Part shown: positions 23,623 through 32,756 of the stretch, piece after piece
Position numbering within the stretch: position 1 is the first letter of the stretch
Layout: each line of letters begins with the position of its first letter
Origin: a virus
Reading direction: 5' to 3' (one strand)
Length of the DNA: 34,134 nt
IMG/VR virus record: IMGVR_UViG_3300036817_000114
Span: 1-34,134 of that record
Notes under the pieces: generated by a model
The model's database searches: none
The model's input: only the letters and a program-made list of their open reading frames with translations
What the model was told of the DNA's origin: nothing
Made by a program: the position numbers and the translations under genes

Positions 23623-23734
23623 GTTTTACCCCAAGAGCCGCCCCCGCAGGGCCTTGGGGGGTTACGACGACGGGAGCGGCCTTCCGTGCGCTGGAGGGGT
23701 CCAGCGGCAGGGCGGGCCGGAAATTAGCCGTCAA
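23615..23734 (-). CDS. Very small protein between portal and head protein (39 aa)
   Basis: TTG start overlaps the portal stop (TTGA), with AGGGGG five bases upstream. Product starts MTANFRPALPLDPSSARK and is not hydrophobic. The stop overlaps the next ATG. Supported by coupling only. Confidence 0.45.
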   Translation of the reverse strand: MTANFRPALPLDPSSARKAAPVVVTPQGPAGAALGVKHG

Positions 23735-25467
23735 TGCGCCCCCTGTCGAGCCTTGCCCTTGGGCGCCCGTCCCCCGCCGCCTGTGTTGATCCCCATGACG
23801 CCCGCGATCAAACCTTCCTTCTTGTCCTCGGCGGCTTGCTTCGCCTGCGCCTTCTGCCGCTGTTTCAGCCGCGCCAGCAAAAGCTCGGCGCCGGGCGGAT
23901 GGAGCATGTGGATCAGATCCTCGGCATCGATCGCTCCCGCGCGGGCAAGCGCGATTGCAACTTGTCGGTTATCCTCTGCAAAAGCCGGCGACGCTGAGTG
24001 GCTGTCAACGCTGACTTGGTAGCCGCTTGGGAGCTGGCTGAGTAGGAACTCTTGCTTGGTGTCGGCGGTTGTGTAGACGAGCGCGTCCATCGCCTGCATG
24101 ATGCGGAGCGCCAGAAACCCGACATCCGCAAGCTGGCGTTCAATCCTGGCCGCTTGGTCGATAAGCCTGCCCCCCGATGTTCGCACCAGGGTTTGAGCAT
24201 GGACGCCAGCGCGGACACCCGGCTCTCCTTGTCCGGCCATGACCGGACTGAAACCACTAGCTTCATCGAACAGTTTGAAAATAAACTCAAGCTCTTCCAA
24301 GTAGTTTTCGGGCGGCGGGTCCAGTAATTTCGACGCTTTCGCATTTGGGTTCGGGTCGTTAATAAAACCTCCTTCGTTGACAATCTTATAGTATTGCTCT
24401 TCCGAGACGGAGGTGAACCCACTGAATACTTGCGGAGCGTTGACATTACGATCCCACATCACCTTGATGTCGCGGAGACGCTTGGAAAGCATGTCCTGCA
24501 ACATCTGCACGCTCGCCACGATCGAGCGCCCCCAAAAGTAGCCCGGCGTCTGCTGGCCCTGAACCTTGACGAACGGCGTCTTGCCCGGAACGCGGCTTAT
24601 GTTCCGTCGGGTTTTATCCCCTTCAATGATAATTGGCTCGGCCCCGTAGATCGTTTGGATCGTGGTCCAGTCCTCGGCCCGGTCGCGGTCTTTGATCCAT
24701 ACTTCGCAGAGTTTGACTGTGGGCGCGAAGCGCCTTTGTGGTCGCCAAGGGGTCGGAACGGGGAACACGTTGACAATCCCGGCCGCTGAGCTTGGCGCGT
24801 CTCCCACGTCTCCGAGGGGCTGGAGGCCTCCAACAACCATCTGATGGAAATATGTCGGCTCTTCCTCATCGCGGTCAGGCCCCGGATCGTCGTCGAGCTG
24901 TTTCATGATCTTCTCGTAATCGGGATGATCGAGAAGCATCGTGCGCAGCTTGGATTTTGTCGGGTAACTGACGTGACAGACGGCTTCCTGCTCGTCAATC
25001 GATAAGGTTGTCTCCGAGAGCACGCCGAAATTCTGCGGATGAACCGGCGCGGTCTTGAACGTCCCGCTGTCTCCGTCGGGGAGAACCTTCATGATCTGGC
25101 AACCGTTGACGAGCGACCAGACCACAGCCTCCGCGAATAGCACGTCAGCGTCAGTCGCGCGAAAGTCGGATGTCAGCTTCTCGGCGACGAGCTGGCAGCG
25201 CTCGAGCACGTCCTCTTCCTCGCCGCTGTCGTAAGAGAGCTGGAAGCGGACATCGGTCGGCTGCATGAGATAGCCCGCGAGCTTATCCACGAACGGGCCG
25301 ATCTTGTTGTAGAGCGCCGCCCGGCTGTCCATCGAGCCCATGTAGTAATATTGGCTGGCCCGCGTGTAGACCATGCCGCGCTCGGTCGCGCTCGCCATGC
25401 ACTCGTCGATGATTTCCTTGATCCACAGCTCAAGGAAGCCAGCCTTGTTGGGGATGCGAAGCGCCAT
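23731..25467 (-). CDS. Portal protein (578 aa)
   Basis: Position downstream of the terminase and the size fit a portal. Typical features: RASQYYYMGSMDSRAALYNK near the N-terminus, YFWGRSIVASVQMLQDMLSK and the C-terminal helical crown/barrel part (ARLKQRQKAQAKQAAEDKKE). Related to the P22/T7-type large portals by layout. It would form the dodecameric ring at the capsid vertex through which DNA is packaged. Confidence 0.8.
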   Translation of the reverse strand: MALRIPNKAGFLELWIKEIIDECMASATERGMVYTRASQYYYMGSMDSRAALYNKIGPFVDKLAGYLMQPTDVRFQLSYDSGEEEDVLERCQLVAEKLTSDFRATDADVLFAEAVVWSLVNGCQIMKVLPDGDSGTFKTAPVHPQNFGVLSETTLSIDEQEAVCHVSYPTKSKLRTMLLDHPDYEKIMKQLDDDPGPDRDEEEPTYFHQMVVGGLQPLGDVGDAPSSAAGIVNVFPVPTPWRPQRRFAPTVKLCEVWIKDRDRAEDWTTIQTIYGAEPIIIEGDKTRRNISRVPGKTPFVKVQGQQTPGYFWGRSIVASVQMLQDMLSKRLRDIKVMWDRNVNAPQVFSGFTSVSEEQYYKIVNEGGFINDPNPNAKASKLLDPPPENYLEELEFIFKLFDEASGFSPVMAGQGEPGVRAGVHAQTLVRTSGGRLIDQAARIERQLADVGFLALRIMQAMDALVYTTADTKQEFLLSQLPSGYQVSVDSHSASPAFAEDNRQVAIALARAGAIDAEDLIHMLHPPGAELLLARLKQRQKAQAKQAAEDKKEGLIAGVMGINTGGGGRAPKGKARQGAH

Positions 25468-25470
25468 CGC

Positions 25471-25935
25471 CTACCAGACCTTGATCGCTTTGCGCTTCGA
25501 GGCTTCGATCAAGTCGGGCTGCGCGCCGCTGGCGATCCCGCGCTTGAGCATGTCCAGGCCGTCCATGCCGAACTGTCGTCTGTTTTGTTTGCCAATGTTG
25601 ATCGCCGTCTCAAGCATCGCCTTGTGGCCCGCTTGCTGCCAATCGGACGGCAGCACCGAGGCGGTCTGATCCTTGTAACGGACTTTAGGCGTTCCGCCTT
25701 GACGCCGGTCGCTTTGGAAGTTGGCGACTTGGTAATCGTTGGCGATGATGCTTTCGGTTATCGCCGCCGCTTTCGACCGGACGCTCCCCCCGATCCCGAA
25801 CGGCTTGAACTCCTGGCTCATCTCCCTCCGGTCGCACGCTTCGCAGCTCGGCGGCGGCTTGTCCCATTCCTCCGCCGTCAGCGTCACCTCCATCCGATGG
25901 TTGCACTCCGGGCAGTAGTACGTCCTCACTATCAT
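25471..25935 (-). CDS. Zinc-ribbon phage protein (154 aa)
   Basis: Starts MIVRTYYCPECNHRMEVTL, with CPEC and later CEAC (residues about 8-34) making a four-Cys zinc ribbon like those of short phage proteins next to the portal. The rest is helical and basic (ASKRKAIKVW). It ends three bases before the portal start. Function unknown; the ribbon suggests nucleic-acid or protein binding. Confidence 0.65.
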   Translation of the reverse strand: MIVRTYYCPECNHRMEVTLTAEEWDKPPPSCEACDRREMSQEFKPFGIGGSVRSKAAAITESIIANDYQVANFQSDRRQGGTPKVRYKDQTASVLPSDWQQAGHKAMLETAINIGKQNRRQFGMDGLDMLKRGIASGAQPDLIEASKRKAIKVW

Positions 25936-26035
25936 CGCTAAGCCCTAAGTGTCGTTCGATCTGCGTTACGCGCTCTTCAAGCTTTGTGATCCGGTCCTCG
26001 GTCAGGGCCGTCCTCAAAAACATCTGCCGCGCCAT
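25685..26035 (-). CDS. Coiled-coil protein overlapping the zinc-ribbon gene (116 aa reading)
   Basis: The first 35 residues (MARQMFLRTALTEDRITKLE, VTQIERHLGLS) look like a real short coiled coil. From 25935 onward the frame overlaps the zinc-ribbon gene and reads as low-quality sequence. It may be a gene with a long overlapping tail or a small gene whose stop was lost. ATG directly follows the upstream TGA. Confidence 0.4.
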   Translation of the reverse strand: MARQMFLRTALTEDRITKLEERVTQIERHLGLSDDSEDVLLPGVQPSDGGDADGGGMGQAAAELRSVRPEGDEPGVQAVRDRGERPVESGGDNRKHHRQRLPSRQLPKRPASRRNA

Positions 26036-26314
26036 TCACTTCGCTTTCGCTTTCGGCCAAGTCTGCGCCTTGACCGTCCACATTTGCGCGTCGAGCGAGC
26101 GCAACGCCGCCTCATTCCAAAGGCTCGCCAGCTCGTTATCGCCCGCGTCCTTCAAGCCGTCATGGCAGATGTCAATGATTTCGGCGAACAGGCTCTTGAG
26201 CTGCGCCACCTTCGGATCGCCGCTCGGGTTGAAGGTGAAACCGACAAGCCGCTTGCCGTAGCTGTCAGCCTCTTTGCGGTCGTAACCTGTCACTTCGGGG
26301 GCCTCCGGCGTCAT
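26036..26314 (-). CDS. Acb2-like candidate cyclic-nucleotide sponge (92 aa)
   Basis: ATG at 26314 with GGAGGA upstream. The pattern [39 protein letters not shown] and [15 protein letters not shown] matches, as I recall it, the small phage proteins of the Acb2/Tad1-type fold that bind cyclic dinucleotides or related signals to block CBASS. Length (92 aa) is right. Proposed role is to sequester the immune signal. It is coupled by ATGA to the Tad2-like gene. Binding residues cannot be confirmed by eye; unrelated helical proteins are possible. Confidence 0.5.
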
Positions 26315-26532
26315 GTCGCTTCCTCCCAATCGGTCGCAAGCAAGTCCGTCTGCGAACAAAGCCACGGGACAAGATCGCCCTGCGCCGTGGACATGTAGAC
26401 GTAGGGCAGCGTCATCTTGGAATGTTCGTCGGGCCGCTGAAGCTCAAGCCACATGCCCTTGCCATTCCAGCCCGAACGCCGCACGCGTCCGCCGTTGTGC
26501 AACTGCTTGACCGCCCACCCAATCGTTTCCAT
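26311..26532 (-). CDS. Tad2-like (DUF2829) protein (73 aa)
   Basis: Recognised as DUF2829: [20 protein letters not shown] followed by [20 protein letters not shown] and [13 protein letters not shown] match the family closely in order and spacing. Members such as Tad2 of phage SPO1 are tetrameric sponges that trap the Thoeris signal (gcADPR isomers), and some bind CBASS signals. Starts right after the terminase stop (TGAATG). An unusual location, inside the structural operon. Confidence 0.85.
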
Positions 26533-28341
26533 TCAGAATGCTTCCTTTCGGGCCTTGACGTTCGCTTTCTGGTTAATCTTGCGGATGTGCTCGGAAAAAG
26601 CAAACGAGAGCACAGTCCCGGCGTTCTGCGGCGGACGCTCGCCCTTCACGCTGTCCCACGTCAACTTGCGCGCGATCAGCCCGGCGCGGCGCCACTCAAC
26701 CCACGTGTGATGCGCGAGAACCGTCGCCGAGACAAGATCATCGTTAACCCCCGTGTCCGGCCCCGCGCCAATCCAGCCGCTCTCTTCCTCGACGATCGCC
26801 TGCAATTCCTCGACCAAACGGATCGACCGGAACTCGATCCGCCGCAGCATGAGACTGTCGCGGAGCGAACTGTAGACCATCGACTTGTTGTCCTGATTGG
26901 TTTTCCAGGCGATCACGTTGCCCGCCCCGCCCAATGTGTCGGCGCGCCGGTAGAGGAACCATCTGACCGCGCCGATCATGTTCAAGATGTTCTCTGAGCC
27001 CGGCTCGCCCTGAAGAATGCCGCGCTCGGCGAGCTGGCGGAGGTTGCGCACCTCGGGGATCACGGCCGCGCCGACGCCGCTCACTTCGATGTTGGCGAGA
27101 TGGTCCTTGTACGCGCCGCACAAATGCGAGAGCACCCACGCGAACTGATAGGTCAAAGGCTTGTTCGATTGGAACTCGGCGACTTGCACAAGCCGGTCGG
27201 CGTAGCAGCGGAACACCTCGATCGCGTGATCGTTAGCGTCGCCGCCCCCGCCCCCGCTTGGATCGCCGCCGATGACGTATATTCCGTTTGGCTCCGGGGG
27301 CTCCCACACCCGAAGCATCGCCTCTTCGCGCTTCGTCGTTTGGGCTATCGACGATCCAAGGAAGGCATCCTCGAAGTTGTATTTGTAGCCCTTGTAGGGA
27401 GGTCCGCTCGACAGGTTCTCGCTCAACTCCAAAGTCCGTTGGGCGGGGAAGAATGCAGACCCCGAGGCTATGAAGCACTCGCGTTCGTTCCACGGATAAT
27501 GGCGGAGCATGTATTCCTCCGCCCGAAATTCCGCCTCTCGACGCCACCATGCGACTTGCTCCGGCTGCACTGTCACGCCGTACTCGCGCCGCACGTAGCG
27601 GGCCTTCTCAACCTCTTCCGCCGTCAGCCTGCCGTCCCAATAGGTCCGATAGTCCGGGTCTGCGCGCGGGATCGAATACGTCGGGTTCGCCCAAAAGCCG
27701 ACGAAGATGAACCGCATGTGGCGGTCTTGCTTCGCTTGCTGGCAATGATTGTAGAACCAATTGAAGCCGTTCGCGATGCTCTCCCAAATGTAGAGCCGCC
27801 GAGGGTTCACGCGCGCGAGCGAGGCCTTCAGGCTCTCGACGCCGGCCAAGCTCTTCCACTGCCCGCACTCGGTCGCGTGCATCATGTTGAGCGCGCGGCT
27901 CGCGCCAAGATCGGGATTGCTCGCCGCCGCCATGAGGTCAATCACGGACTTGTTGGCGAACACCATGCCGGTGCGATTGTTGCTGATCAGCCGCGAACCG
28001 ACGGTGCGCCACTCGGGCGGCAGGGTCTCCAATAGCGCGGCGAAGATGCGCCGCAAACGCTCAAGGTTGTCCGTCCTGTCGGCGATGATCGCGCCCTGCA
28101 CGCCGGGGTTGGCGAGCGCCCAAAACAATTCGATCACACTGCAAACCGTCGTGATCGCCACCTGACGGCACTTCAAAACGACAAATTCGTGGACGCCCTC
28201 TTGCAAGCCCTTCGACACGGCGTCGATGACGAGCCGCTGCGACATCCACGGATCGACATGCGTGCGGCCCTCTTCCTTCGTGTCAATCTCAACTGAGCCT
28301 AAGAGGTCATAAATGCCCTGACGAATGCTTGGTTGGGTCAT
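26533..28341 (-). CDS. terL: Terminase large subunit (602 aa)
   Basis: ATPase and nuclease domains in order. The Walker A region is FVVLKCRQVAITT (about residues 53-65); in this family the pattern is usually RQxGIT, so the Ala is a small deviation. Walker B region is LNMMHATECGQW. Nuclease acids are visible in IGGDPSGGGGGDANDHAIEV and, near the C-terminus, GVNDDLVSATV. It drives DNA into the capsid and cuts concatemers. Coupled by ATGA to the HNH gene. No small subunit is recognised nearby. Confidence 0.9.
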   Translation of the reverse strand: MTQPSIRQGIYDLLGSVEIDTKEEGRTHVDPWMSQRLVIDAVSKGLQEGVHEFVVLKCRQVAITTVCSVIELFWALANPGVQGAIIADRTDNLERLRRIFAALLETLPPEWRTVGSRLISNNRTGMVFANKSVIDLMAAASNPDLGASRALNMMHATECGQWKSLAGVESLKASLARVNPRRLYIWESIANGFNWFYNHCQQAKQDRHMRFIFVGFWANPTYSIPRADPDYRTYWDGRLTAEEVEKARYVRREYGVTVQPEQVAWWRREAEFRAEEYMLRHYPWNERECFIASGSAFFPAQRTLELSENLSSGPPYKGYKYNFEDAFLGSSIAQTTKREEAMLRVWEPPEPNGIYVIGGDPSGGGGGDANDHAIEVFRCYADRLVQVAEFQSNKPLTYQFAWVLSHLCGAYKDHLANIEVSGVGAAVIPEVRNLRQLAERGILQGEPGSENILNMIGAVRWFLYRRADTLGGAGNVIAWKTNQDNKSMVYSSLRDSLMLRRIEFRSIRLVEELQAIVEEESGWIGAGPDTGVNDDLVSATVLAHHTWVEWRRAGLIARKLTWDSVKGERPPQNAGTVLSFAFSEHIRKINQKANVKARKEAF

Positions 28342-28739
28342 CGACGCCGCGCCCCATCGCTGCGGTTATCGTGAGATAGTCGGTAACGCAGATTGGTCAG
28401 CTCGTTGTTGTGTCGGTTGCGGTTCCGATGATCGCCCTCATGTCCGTCGGGCGGCGGGCCGACGAACGCAAGCAGGACAAGCTGATGCACGTCCACGCCT
28501 TCGTGGTTTTTCTTTCCAAGCGTGACGTGAAGATAGCCGTTGCCCGATGGCGAGAGCTTCAGAACCTTGCCGCGATAAAATCTTCGCTGCACGCCGAGCT
28601 TCCCCGGTGGACAGGTAACGTGTCGATCGATTGACCTGACACGGCCAAGGTCGGAAACCTCATAGCCGTCGTGTCCGGGGATCGCTCGCCACTCTTCGGC
28701 CAACTCTCGGCGCTCCGCTCTCGACTGCAACCCGCGCAT
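28338..28739 (-). CDS. NUMOD4-HNH homing-type endonuclease (133 aa)
   Basis: NUMOD4 motif EEWRAIPGHDGYEVSDLGRV RS at residues about 15-37, then HNH: VDVHQLVLLAFVGPPPDGHE, DHRNRNRHNNELTNLRY and SHDNRSD. These are the standard module pair of phage homing nucleases. ATG at 28739 has no good ribosome site and overlaps the upstream gene by 80 bases. Placed between a small Ala-rich gene and the terminase, a common insertion site for HNH genes. Confidence 0.9.
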   Translation of the reverse strand: MRGLQSRAERRELAEEWRAIPGHDGYEVSDLGRVRSIDRHVTCPPGKLGVQRRFYRGKVLKLSPSGNGYLHVTLGKKNHEGVDVHQLVLLAFVGPPPDGHEGDHRNRNRHNNELTNLRYRLSHDNRSDGARRR

Positions 28740-29058
28740 GCGCGTCGGCGCCGCCCCTGATAGGCGAGTTTCGCTGCGCGGGCAAAGTCCCGGCAGGATA
28801 CACGTTGCCGTCGCGCCTTTGCCAGCGGTGCGTGAGATAGCCTTGCGCCGTCGTGTTGAACGTCTGCGGCAGGGTTGACGCCGTGGTCGCGGGCCGGACG
28901 CCGGTGTTGGCCGTCAAGGTCTGCGCCGCCGCAGCCGAGGCTTGCGCCGCCGTGGCCGCCGTGGCCGCCGATGTCGCAGCCGCTTCCGACGCGGTTTGAA
29001 TGCCCTGTAACGCCGCGATGACGGCAGGATCGGCCGGCGTGTACGTCCCATTGCTCAT
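28660..29058 (-). CDS. Ala/Thr-rich small protein, first of the late block (132 aa)
   Basis: ATG at 29058 with GGAG six bases upstream. Helical Ala-rich section (AALQGIQTASEAAATSAATA) resembling collagen-like or fibre-type heptads, then a segment (AQGYLTHRWQRRDGNVYPAG). The last 26 residues overlap the HNH gene in another frame and may be non-native. May be a minor structural or packaging protein. Small terminase is possible but unproven. Confidence 0.5.
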   Translation of the reverse strand: MSNGTYTPADPAVIAALQGIQTASEAAATSAATAATAAQASAAAAQTLTANTGVRPATTASTLPQTFNTTAQGYLTHRWQRRDGNVYPAGTLPAQRNSPIRGGADAHARVAVESGAPRVGRRVASDPRTRRL

Positions 29059-29193
29059 GACGCGCTCCGGTTGTGCGGCGTCACCCGATTGTGATAAACG
29101 CCAAACGCCCCGCCATTCCCAAACCATGACGAGGCGTCTGACGTACTGCAAGGGCTCTATTCGCCGTCGGGTTCCACGCTCGACGGCGATTTT
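29059..29193. other. Intergenic region between early block and late block
   Basis: About 135 bases without a convincing gene. Contains the hairpin CGCCGTCG (29162-29169) and CGACGGCG (29181-29188), followed on the plus strand by ATTTTTC. A T-run on the plus strand with only A-rich sequence before the stem on the minus strand makes it an odd terminator for minus-strand transcripts. I see no strong promoter for the late block here. Confidence 0.4.
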
Positions 29194-29283
29194 TCATCGC
29201 CAGTAGTGCGAGAGCACCGCCCCCACAAGATTGGCGAGGATTACGAACTCCGCCACGTTGAGCGCGAGCCTGAACGTCCTCAC
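29194..29283 (-). CDS. Tiny single-span membrane protein (29 aa)
   Basis: GTG start overlaps the stop of the upstream gene (GTGA). 29 residues with a clear membrane helix (LNVAEFVILANLVGAVLSHY) and basic N-terminus (RTFR). Supported by coupling and by the TM. Could be a membrane peptide active in lysis or early take-over. Confidence 0.5.
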   Translation of the reverse strand: MRTFRLALNVAEFVILANLVGAVLSHYWR

Positions 29284-29504
29284 CGCTCGCCCGCCTTTAT
29301 CATCATCGCGCGCCTCACGATGGTCGCCGCGAACGCCAGAGCGCGATCCGGGGGCATTGCGATCCAGGCGGTCGCCTTCCCGAACTCGATCATCACGTTG
29401 CCCTTTTCCTCGCCAATGGCGATCCTCAACCCGCCCTCGTCAGTGTCGTTGAGCTTGCCGTGCGGGAAGTCGCCGGTCGGCCCGGCTTCGTCACGCCCGC
29501 TCAT
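29280..29504 (-). CDS. Small beta-rich hypothetical (74 aa)
   Basis: Starts MSGRDEAGPTGDFPHGKLND, then beta strands (GGLRIAIGEEKGNVMIEFGK) and a helix (DRALAFAATIVRRAMMIKAG). The ATGA overlap with the XRE gene argues for start at 29504; a longer in-frame start is antiphase to XRE. Function unknown. Confidence 0.6.
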   Translation of the reverse strand: MSGRDEAGPTGDFPHGKLNDTDEGGLRIAIGEEKGNVMIEFGKATAWIAMPPDRALAFAATIVRRAMMIKAGER

Positions 29505-30183: not shown

Positions 30184-30367
30184 TGTCGTTTGCTTTCTCG
30201 ATTTCACAGCCGAACAGTTTGCGAACCGTCGCCTCTTCGCTCGGCGACAGGTCCATGCCGATCACGATGTTGCAGCCCATGCAGCGGGTCTCGTCAGCCG
30301 GGCCGCCGAAAAGGAAAACGTTGATCCCGCAATCGGCGCAGACAAATTCACGCGCTACCAAGGTCAA
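30146..30367 (-). CDS. Small zinc-ribbon protein (73 aa)
   Basis: CADCGINVFLFGGPADETRC-x-x-C gives two CxxC knuckles 15 residues apart (FVCADC and RCMGC), a zinc ribbon. The rest is helical (SPSEEATVRKLFGCEIEK). TTG start at 30367 with AGGGGG upstream; TTG at 30361 is equally usable. Overlaps the exonuclease gene by 20 bases. Confidence 0.65.
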   Translation of the reverse strand: MTLVAREFVCADCGINVFLFGGPADETRCMGCNIVIGMDLSPSEEATVRKLFGCEIEKANDNAIRPTDAGSGR

Positions 30368-31082
30368 GCTCTCCCCCTTCCTCCGGGTTGATAATCGTCA
30401 GCGGCGGAGCGTCCGCCGCGTCCCCGTAGGCCGCGTCTTGCGGACGCTGAATGCGGCGCATTACCGCGTAGGCGCCGAGCATCCTGGCGCGCTCCGTCGT
30501 CACGTCGAGCGCATCGCAGAACGATGACAGCGCCGAACGCAAGACGCCCTGATAGCGCGGGTCGGGAACCGTCACCTTGTGCAGCGGCGGCATCTGAGGG
30601 TGCCAACTGTAAAAGTGGACAGCGCGAAACTCGCCAATCAAAATCTGCCCCTGGACTTGCGGCTTGTAATCGTCGCCCGGCCCGTCCAACAGATATTCGA
30701 CTTGCGTCCACGGCGCCGGACATTTCACCTCGACGCCCTCCGTCAGGCCGCGCAGCGTCCGGTCCGGCGAGGCGACCAGCCGCCCGTCATCGGTCGCGAC
30801 CAGCCCGCCCGGCTCAAGCTGCACCTCGTTGGTGAAATTGAACTGCGCGACGGCGTTCGGCTCCTGCTCCTTGCCGCGCGCCACCCATTGGACGAAGCCG
30901 ATTTCGTCGTCCATCGTTTCGTTTAACAGCCGCTCAGCGACCAAACGGTAGAGGTATTTGACCGCCTGTCTCGACGGCTCCCCTTTGGGCGTAACTATCT
31001 TATGAAAATTCGAGGCCGTCGGCCTGCCGAGCCGGGCCTGATACCACGCCGTTGACCCTTGTTCGATCTTGTAGAATTTCAT
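30348..31082 (-). CDS. YqaJ/lambda-exonuclease-type recombinase nuclease (244 aa)
   Basis: MKFYKIEQGSTAWYQARLGR-P-TASNF at the N-terminus is the family signature (RxGxxTAS). The catalytic region is LVASPDRTL with EGVEVKCPAP (acid, then E-x-K), and YKPQVQGQILIGEF follows as in YqaJ proteins. It degrades DNA 5'-3' to expose single strands. With the ERF annealing protein upstream it forms a two-component recombination system. ATG at 31082 has GGAGGGAGCG upstream and overlaps the HNH stop. Confidence 0.85.
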   Translation of the reverse strand: MKFYKIEQGSTAWYQARLGRPTASNFHKIVTPKGEPSRQAVKYLYRLVAERLLNETMDDEIGFVQWVARGKEQEPNAVAQFNFTNEVQLEPGGLVATDDGRLVASPDRTLRGLTEGVEVKCPAPWTQVEYLLDGPGDDYKPQVQGQILIGEFRAVHFYSWHPQMPPLHKVTVPDPRYQGVLRSALSSFCDALDVTTERARMLGAYAVMRRIQRPQDAAYGDAADAPPLTIINPEEGGELDLGSA

Positions 31083-31468
31083 CGCTCCCTCCGTCGAGCA
31101 TTCCAGCAACGGCGACAACCCCGTCTCACTTTCGGCCTCCGCGCCAAAACCTCGTAAGGATCACCGCATTCATCGCAGACGAACTTTTGAGGTTGACCGC
31201 GCAGTCCGCGCCGCACGTTCACGCCCGGCGTCACGGGCTCAAGGTGCGCCTCGTTGATGCAGCATCGCGTGCGGCAAAGATGATCCGGCAGCAATCCGAG
31301 CGGGATTGGACCATTCGCCAGCTCATAGGCGACGACGTGGGCCTGACGCATTCGGCCCGCCACCTTCATGCGGCCGTACCCCTTGTCGTTGAGCGCGCCC
31401 ATCCAAATCAAGCAACCGCTGTTCGGTTCCGGGATCGACCACTGTTCCAAGCGTTCCGCGAGCGTCAT
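31079..31468 (-). CDS. HNH endonuclease in the recombination block (129 aa)
   Basis: HNH core: PNSGCLIWMGALNDKGYGRM, AHVVAYELANGPIPLGLLPD, HLCRTRCCINEAHLEPVTPG (His-Asn-His present) and a C-terminal CDECGDPYEVLARRP zinc motif. ATG at 31468 with GGAGGGAGCG, identical to the leader of the exonuclease gene. It overlaps the gene upstream by 107 bases. Likely selfish element. Confidence 0.85.
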   Translation of the reverse strand: MTLAERLEQWSIPEPNSGCLIWMGALNDKGYGRMKVAGRMRQAHVVAYELANGPIPLGLLPDHLCRTRCCINEAHLEPVTPGVNVRRGLRGQPQKFVCDECGDPYEVLARRPKVRRGCRRCWNARRRER

Positions 31469-31574
31469 CGCTCCCTCCGCCATAGAGCGCGCCCATGAGG
31501 CCGGGCTTGCGCCGCATGAGCCGCCCGTGCTTCGCGCCAGCCTTGGCGCCCTTCCGCCAGTCGTCGCTGGTCAT
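31323..31574 (-). CDS. Small basic protein with an out-of-frame tail through HNH (83 aa)
   Basis: The first 37 residues (MTSDDWRKGAKAGAKHGRLM and RRKPGLMGALYGGGSDD) look native, basic and Gly-rich. The rest runs antiphase to the HNH gene and is probably read-through of a lost stop. ATG overlaps the upstream stop (ATGA). Confidence 0.4.
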   Translation of the reverse strand: MTSDDWRKGAKAGAKHGRLMRRKPGLMGALYGGGSDDARGTLGTVVDPGTEQRLLDLDGRAQRQGVRPHEGGGPNASGPRRRL

Positions 31575-31798
31575 TGCCCCTCCAGCCACGTCGCCATGCC
31601 GGGGAGCTGATAATCGAGCTGCGCCCGATGATCGGCGAGCAAACCCGCGCGCGTGTAGCCGAGCTGCTCCAACAGCATCAGGTCGGCCGCAAACTGCATC
31701 GGCGTTCGCTCTTCCGTGCTCTTGCCGTAGTGGAGCTGGCCGCAGCACAGACAACGGTTCGCCGGATGTTTCGATTTCACCTTGCCGCCATCGCTCAT
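31571..31798 (-). CDS. Small Cys-containing hypothetical (75 aa)
   Basis: NRCLCCGQLHYGKS carries CxCC, a possible half zinc site, followed by a helical part (QFAADLMLLEQLGYTRAGLL). GGAGG precedes ATG; ATGA overlaps at both ends. In the early operon. Function unknown. Confidence 0.6.
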   Translation of the reverse strand: MSDGGKVKSKHPANRCLCCGQLHYGKSTEERTPMQFAADLMLLEQLGYTRAGLLADHRAQLDYQLPGMATWLEGQ

Positions 31799-31998
31799 TG
31801 CCTCAACCTCCGCTCATGTTCGGCCCACCATTCGCGAGCGATGCTTTGAGGAAAGAAAGCGCTGTCAGGCGGCGGCGTTGTGCGCGGGCCGTCGAGCCAG
31901 TCAGTGATCAGCTTGCTTTCCCAACTCGCCATCCGCCATGAGCCGTAGAGTATTCCTGCGAACAGAATTGCTCCGCCGACAACAGCGAGCGTCGTCAT
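31795..31998 (-). CDS. Small N-terminal membrane-anchored protein (67 aa)
   Basis: N-terminal span (TLAVVGGAILFAGILYGSW) then a soluble tail (WESKLITDWLDG, AREWWAEHERRLRQ). AAGGAAG precedes ATG; coupled at both ends. Orientation or role not known; could be an early membrane effector. Confidence 0.6.
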   Translation of the reverse strand: MTTLAVVGGAILFAGILYGSWRMASWESKLITDWLDGPRTTPPPDSAFFPQSIAREWWAEHERRLRQ

Positions 31999-32756
31999 TT
32001 CTGGACTTCCTTTCGCACCGTCTTTCGCAGCTTGTCGCGCAGCGCCAGCTCTAAGCGCGGATAGTCGCGCACGCGCACGTCGGCGATCGCGTCGGCGCCG
32101 CTGACCATGATCTTGAGAAAGTTCGCTTCGTTGGTCTCGGTTTTCTTGATCAGGTCGGTAAGCGTCTTGATCTGCGTCGCGTCGATCAAGGCCTCCATCG
32201 CCCCCTTGCCGTCGTCATCCTTGCCCTTCCTGACCACGTTGCAAAGATCGTCTGTGATGTAGCGCTTGGCGTAGCGCCGGCTCGATCCGCGCGCCTGTAG
32301 CGCGTTCCTGCCCGGCCCCGCGTCTGGCGGCAACGTGTACGTCGAGTTTCGCTCCCAACCCCAACCGGCGAGCGTCCCCGTGATCGTCACGGCGTCCTTG
32401 TCGTCGCGCGAGGTGAAGCTCAAGGCGAAGCCGTGCTTCGCCAAAAGCGGGCGGATGATCACGTCCATCCCCTCGATTGTGGTGAACGCATAGCGGCCGA
32501 CTTCACGCCCATCCTTGACGAGCGCCACCGTGCCGTCGCGCTCGACTTGCGGCATCTCGGCGGAGAAGTCGGCGTAGTGCGCTAGGAACGCCTCGCGCGC
32601 TTGGTCGGCCAACACCTCGCGGCGCATCTTGAGCATCACCTCAAGCTTGTCAGCCGGAACGTCCGGGTTCGTCAGGAGCGTCATCAACGTCTGCGCGAAC
32701 GTCTCGGCGGGCCGGTCGGGGACAGGCGCCGGAAGCGGGTTTGGTTCGTCGGTCAT
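31995..32756 (-). CDS. ERF-family single-strand annealing protein (253 aa)
   Basis: ERF superfamily layout: helical start, then AFLAHYADFSAEMPQVERDG, YAFTTIEGMDVIIRPLLAKH, GFALSFTSRDDKDAVTITGT and SSRRYAKRYITDDLCNVV (the A/S-KRY-x-x-x-D/x-L signature of annealing recombinases). Anneals complementary single strands in recombination and circularization. AGAGGGATGGC ribosome site. Works with the nuclease at 30348-31082. Confidence 0.85.
   Translation of the reverse strand: MTDEPNPLPAPVPDRPAETFAQTLMTLLTNPDVPADKLEVMLKMRREVLADQAREAFLAHYADFSAEMPQVERDGTVALVKDGREVGRYAFTTIEGMDVIIRPLLAKHGFALSFTSRDDKDAVTITGTLAGWGWERNSTYTLPPDAGPGRNALQARGSSRRYAKRYITDDLCNVVRKGKDDDGKGAMEALIDATQIKTLTDLIKKTETNEANFLKIMVSGADAIADVRVRDYPRLELALRDKLRKTVRKEVQK

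Follow-up and report, generated by a model that had tools for sequence, protein, structure and literature searches.

What two small overlapping genes are doing between the genes of the terminase large subunit (TerL) and the portal protein is the question raised by IMG/VR virus record IMGVR_UViG_3300036817_000114, of which positions 1 to 34,134, the whole stretch analysed here, are referred to as the window. A sequence-only reading of this DNA had assigned the 73-aa product to the DUF2829/Tad2 family of proteins that sequester Thoeris signals and likened the 92-aa product to Acb2-type proteins that sequester CBASS cyclic nucleotides, and had suggested structure prediction and comparison with both families as a check. 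Coordinates of the locus are collected in Table 1.

Table 1. Features of the locus in the window.
Feature	Positions	Strand	Basis
tad2 (Tad2-like sponge gene), 73 aa	26311..26532	-	PF11195 match, Tad2 chains in PDB, AlphaFold model
Acb2-type gene (Acb2/Tad1 hairpin family), 92 aa, subfamily a, ATG start	26036..26314	-	homologues, profiles, model
ATGA start/stop overlap of tad2 and the Acb2-type gene	26311..26314	-	sequence
GGGAGGA, Shine-Dalgarno-like sequence inside tad2, before the Acb2-type start	26321..26327	-	sequence
TerL (terminase large subunit)	26533..28341	-	phrog_2, E 7e-15
Small 116-aa ORF, directly downstream of the Acb2-type gene	25685..26035	-	sequence
154-aa ORF, N-terminus weakly zinc-ribbon-like; borders the variable slot on the right	25471..25935	-	Zn_ribbon_8, E 0.002, under cutoff
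Portal protein (weak match)	23731..25467	-	phrog_1216, E 3e-4

The genes follow each other in the order NUMOD4/HNH gene, TerL, tad2, Acb2-type gene, 116-aa ORF, 154-aa ORF and portal, with a major head protein gene downstream of the pair (PHROG E 1e-15). The adjacency of the two genes and their overlap by ATGA had been recognized correctly, and their placement between terminase and portal holds as a location, except that the 116-aa and 154-aa ORFs come before the portal gene. The TerL stop codon (TGA, 26533-26535) is immediately next to the start of tad2, just as that of the Acb2-type gene (26036-26038) is next to the start of the 116-aa ORF at 26035; a Pfam search with the latter ORF gave no match, and the 154-aa ORF is kept beside the portal gene in relatives. 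A program-made ORF list carries the Acb2-type gene as a 109-aa form with a GTG start reaching 26365. Close relatives, whose N-terminus reads M-x-x-EAP-x-V-x-GYDRK, instead support the ATG at 26314 as the favoured start of the 92-aa protein. Scanning for sigma-70-like promoters found none in 25400-29300, where 0.6 would be expected, which is consistent with read-through from TerL and silent on the late expression that the sequence-only reading had suggested.

The 73-aa protein is, by sequence and predicted fold, clearly a member of the Tad2 family, as had been proposed, with a match to Pfam PF11195 (DUF2829) that is far above chance (E 2.1e-24; 86.3 bits at a cutoff of 25) and sequence matches to seven solved Tad2/AcrIIA7 sequences in the PDB. 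Tad2/AcrIIA7 entries account for every one of the 24 PDB matches that its AlphaFold model (pLDDT 92) retrieves at E<=1e-3, while the 25th lies at E 0.37, and the model superposes on solved Tad2s with TM-scores of 0.80-0.89 by query length. Across 61 Tad2 relatives, W22, P56, W57, S60, Q61, D63 and L65 are invariant and N23, G24 and K25 nearly so; these residues map to beta1-beta2, beta4-alpha3 and helix alpha3 of the model, and PMC12043709 describes the loops beta1-beta2 and beta4-alpha3 together with helix alpha3 as the elements of the gcADPR pocket of Tad2. SPO1 Tad2, HgmTad2/AcrIIA7, SptTad2 and ModTad2 have the family, the predicted fold, the GWNGKGM motif and a second conserved block in common with the 73-aa protein, which differs from these known Tad2s in being shorter (73 aa vs 88-104) and in being encoded in a packaging operon alongside an Acb2-type gene. 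The beta2-beta3 middle segment, extended in HgmTad2 and SptTad2 and reported to bind cyclic dinucleotides in other Tad2s, is short here, and alignments show no counterpart of the long middle segment of 8wjd and 8kbi. PMC12043709 attributes cyclic-dinucleotide binding by Tad2 to an insertion between beta2 and beta5, and SPO1 Tad2 is described in PMC11722364 as not binding 3'3'-cGAMP. By its missing long insertion, the 73-aa protein would thus fall outside the cyclic-dinucleotide-binding subset of Tad2s, with its membership in the family unaffected.

The resemblance of the 92-aa protein to Acb2 was borne out through homologues and profiles and not through any direct database match, since scans of Pfam, PHROG, PADLOC and NCBIfam with this protein found nothing. 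A search of the window itself with PF24729 (Acb2_Tad1_hairpin) also gave no match, so that membership in this family rests on relatives. An alignment search with the protein yielded hundreds of these, and tblastn locates it in Providencia, Enterobacter, Pasteurella, Haemophilus and lake phages with 36-46% identity. A protein of 48% identity from locus L021 reaches 32.1 bits against PF24729 (cutoff 27), and the homologues of phages EcP1, DSL-LC05 and Pmp11 reach 37.5-42.5 bits, compared to 71.4 bits for T4 Acb2 as positive control. Aligned to an Acb2 profile with T4 Acb2 among its members, a 65-member profile scored 39.9 (probability 91.8%, E 7.5e-7), with 100 column shuffles reaching no more than 23.1; the nine sequences closest to the 92-aa protein, taken alone, gave no match to the Acb2 profile (3% probability). 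We set aside a DPS protein (phmmer E 0.44) and designed helical proteins found by the profile as helical-composition noise, and TAL-effector repeats matching a partner protein as repeat-driven noise.

The predicted structure of the 92-aa protein (pLDDT 88.5) is a short helix followed by a long antiparallel hairpin, and this is the plan of the Acb2 protomer according to PMC12043709. The structural comparison was clear-cut for the Tad2 fold and divided for Acb2: the top two BFVD matches of the model are Acb2/Tad1 hairpin entries (E 7e-4 and 7e-3), but solved T4 Acb2 (PDB 7uq2) is a weak match at rank 2 (E 1.1, TM 0.36). Acb2 proteins such as T4 Vs.4 and those of PaP2/PaMx33 resemble the 92-aa protein in size, in the short N-terminal helix and two long antiparallel helices of its model, and apparently in an aromatic N-terminal residue, a conserved Lys and an M-W-x-x-(K/R)-A block. 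The 92-aa protein differs from them in a PF24729 score of its own below detection, though subfamily relatives pass the cutoff, and in its N-terminal GYDRK extension, shorter loop, pocket substitutions and pairing with tad2. Tad1 has the C-terminal hairpin domain in common with Acb2, and PF24729 covers both, but its N-terminal beta-sheet domain (described in PMC12043709) is absent from the model. The 92-aa protein is thus best described, by transitive homology and profiles, as a divergent Acb2-type protein and not a proven Acb2.

How far it has diverged bears on what it may bind. Tyr8 and Phe82 are given as pocket residues of T4 Acb2 in PMC12657218. In the profile-profile alignment, Phe82 pairs with Thr85 of the 92-aa protein, next to Trp86, and T4 Lys23 pairs with its invariant Lys40; Tyr8 corresponds approximately to Phe28, with the aromatic character kept, as read from Pfam match coordinates outside that alignment, and with this pairing the loop would be some three residues shorter than in T4 Acb2. 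With Phe28 in place of Tyr8 and Thr85 in place of Phe82, the ligand of T4 Acb2 can therefore not be assumed for the 92-aa protein. Tad2 might then be the Thoeris sponge while the hairpin protein has moved to another signal, such as a nucleotide or ADP-ribose derivative, or has lost binding altogether, an alternative that we find unlikely but take seriously. The failure of direct family models to detect the protein and the pocket differences, GYDRK extension and shortened loop of its near family point in this direction, as does locus L005, where two different copies surround one tad2 as expected for differing specificities. Yet 65 relatives retain the aromatic residue 28, Lys40 and most of an A-Q-M-W-x-V-K-A block, and members of the same subfamily score above the PF24729 cutoff.

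We surveyed the TerL-portal slot among 77 loci that have a related TerL and a recognizable right border (the 154-aa ORF or portal). Of these, 40 lack both genes, 30 have only an Acb2-type gene (15 of type a, 15 of type b) and seven have both (TAD-ACB in four, ACB-TAD in two and ACB-TAD-ACB in one), while tad2 alone was found in 0/77 loci, with its Acb2-type partner present in 7/7. From this occupancy it follows that both genes behave as accessory genes and not as packaging components. It is accordingly very improbable that they are packaging or head accessory proteins merely resembling sponge families, as their position between TerL and portal and the proximity of the Acb2-type subfamily to terminase or virion genes in Pmp11, Aaphi23, DSL-LC05 and PS3 might otherwise suggest: besides the many empty slots, types a and b substitute for one another, a relative in L056 has the gene after portal, the EcP1 homologue lies among hypothetical genes without annotated packaging genes, and other lineages carry the pair away from this TerL.

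Individual loci show further arrangements. The triple array of L005 (4527-5248; IMGVR_UViG_3300036817_000034) has the order Acb2-type / Tad2 / Acb2-type in the same slot, and its two Acb2-type proteins differ in subtype, one being over the PF24729 cutoff and the other divergent like that of the window. A further PF24729 form (FRPRYRALTEPEKALHDALK...LALTSLEESVMWIVKELT) is encoded near the same TerL-portal slot in L377 (7176-7457), L369, L376 and L413. In Providencia phage PSTCR8lys (L008:2989-3227), the Acb2-type gene is apparently frameshifted, with two overlapping frames and no intact ORF.

That the coupled pair forms a unit, as the sequence-only reading had it, is strongly supported by related loci. 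Among viral loci seeded with Tad2, an Acb2-type ORF occurs in 36/80 and is a same-strand neighbour of tad2 within 350 nt in 31 of these 36; among 79 loci seeded with Acb2, 13 have tad2, adjacent and on the same strand in every case (13/13). Random placement among about ten flank genes predicts roughly 20% adjacency against the observed 31/36 (p ~3e-17), but the loci are not independent and lineage counts are therefore safer. By this measure, the pair is found in 22 lineages without substantial DNA similarity, comprising viral loci and genome contigs (the latter titled Methylobacterium, Mycolicibacterium, Marinosulfonomonas MAG and uncultured bacterium). Either gene may come first, and the partners belong to three Acb2 subfamilies: type a, that of the window, the canonical type b, and type c, whose motifs are T4-like (GY close to the N-terminus, VF(K/Q)P close to the C-terminus). 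Acb2-type genes are also the commonest family sampled in the few hundred bases around tad2 (20/111 lineages by HMM label), followed by an unnamed ORF cluster (14 lineages) and Phage_gp49_66 (nine; the top Pfam-named family after Acb2). Recurring in 20 or more phage or prophage lineages that are unrelated to each other, the pair of Tad2 and Acb2-type genes has the appearance of a counter-defence cassette that selection has favoured repeatedly.

The same neighbourhoods could instead reflect hitch-hiking, with the TerL-portal slot and similar regions collecting small morons that meet by chance. We consider this improbable, even if the slot is clearly variable, Phage_gp49_66 recurs beside Tad2 as well, and TerL has an HNH homing-endonuclease gene as its direct upstream neighbour. 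Near tad2, Acb2-type genes occur about twice as often as any Pfam-named family and exceed the unnamed cluster by 20 to 14 lineages; tad2 never occupies the slot alone; and the pairs recur in Methylobacterium and Mycolicibacterium genome contigs. Moreover, in an alignment set of longer Tad2s, PF24729 is detected anywhere in 6/80 contigs, and all six place it within ~310 nt of tad2.

The Tad2 and Acb2 families are each already known; in the literature searched, passages naming both families mention no tad2-acb2 pair, though a report elsewhere is possible. The phage anti-defence gene clusters exemplified by the SPO1 acb4 cluster (PMC11722364) similarly group small counter-defence genes, but that type of cluster is one island in one phage group, whereas the specific pair described here turns up in either order in genomes unrelated to each other. 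As for the other neighbours, the Phage_gp49_66 (PF13876) gene beside tad2 in nine unrelated lineages (e.g., L101:2965-3357) is maybe a counter-defence candidate in its own right, and the ORF cluster without Pfam match, a putative gene, lies beside a longer tad2 in its 14 lineages (e.g., L277:3822-4001).

Pairing appears to be unevenly distributed over the Tad2 family. When both seed sets are merged by DNA lineage, an Acb2-type gene accompanies Tad2s of 80 aa or less (short Tad2s) in 20/64 lineages and longer ones in 2/48 (Fisher p 2.5e-4), a comparison confounded by Tad2 phylogeny, by seeding and by unequal detection (subfamily HMMs in the short set, Pfam in the long set). In the long-seeded set alone the association is borderline (p 0.054), and 44 of the 64 short Tad2 lineages have no adjacent partner. 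Longer Tad2s could accommodate the insertion that reportedly binds cyclic dinucleotides and are more rarely paired, which fits a division of labour in which the partner would complement the cyclic-dinucleotide site that short Tad2s lack, with the ligands of both proteins being predicted ones.

Taken together, we think that the two genes probably form a counter-defence cassette in a variable TerL-portal slot, consisting of a Tad2 sponge and a cyclic-oligonucleotide sponge with predicted ligands. The 73-aa Tad2 would most likely assemble as the known Tad2 tetramer and sequester ADP-ribose-derived Thoeris signals, while the 92-aa hairpin protein would most likely oligomerise, Acb2 itself being a hexamer, and sequester cyclic oligonucleotides, be it CBASS or type III CRISPR signals, so that the Acb2-type partner may cover signals that short Tad2 cannot bind and the two might jointly protect the phage, with the broad resistance proposed in the sequence-only reading being a conjecture. 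Translational coupling would ensure co-expression of both sponges at stoichiometric levels, which would suit proteins of this kind because sponges work by stoichiometry. Such a sponge may also carry a cost, since T4 Acb2 triggers the Panoptes defence according to PMC12657218, and this could explain the patchy presence of the genes. More tentatively, we can envisage a recurrent sponge cassette that was independently assembled many times with different Acb2 subfamilies and complements short Tad2s, with the partner of the window's subfamily having shifted to a different signal.

Single sponges with several pockets are already known. With a separate pair that is put together again and again, phages would be seen to reach breadth also by genetic coupling, and it would offer a guilt-by-association rule by which small genes adjoining tad2 are candidate signal sponges. 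The division of labour between short and long Tad2s becomes directly testable, and the survey supplies a collection of divergent Acb2-type proteins that may bind new ligands.

Elsewhere in the window, the NUMOD4/HNH homing-endonuclease gene upstream of TerL (28338-28739) is joined by a second HNH gene at 31079-31483, and both might drive traffic into the slot. Genes for a YqaJ exonuclease and an ERF-like annealing protein at 30348-32756 constitute a phage recombination module.
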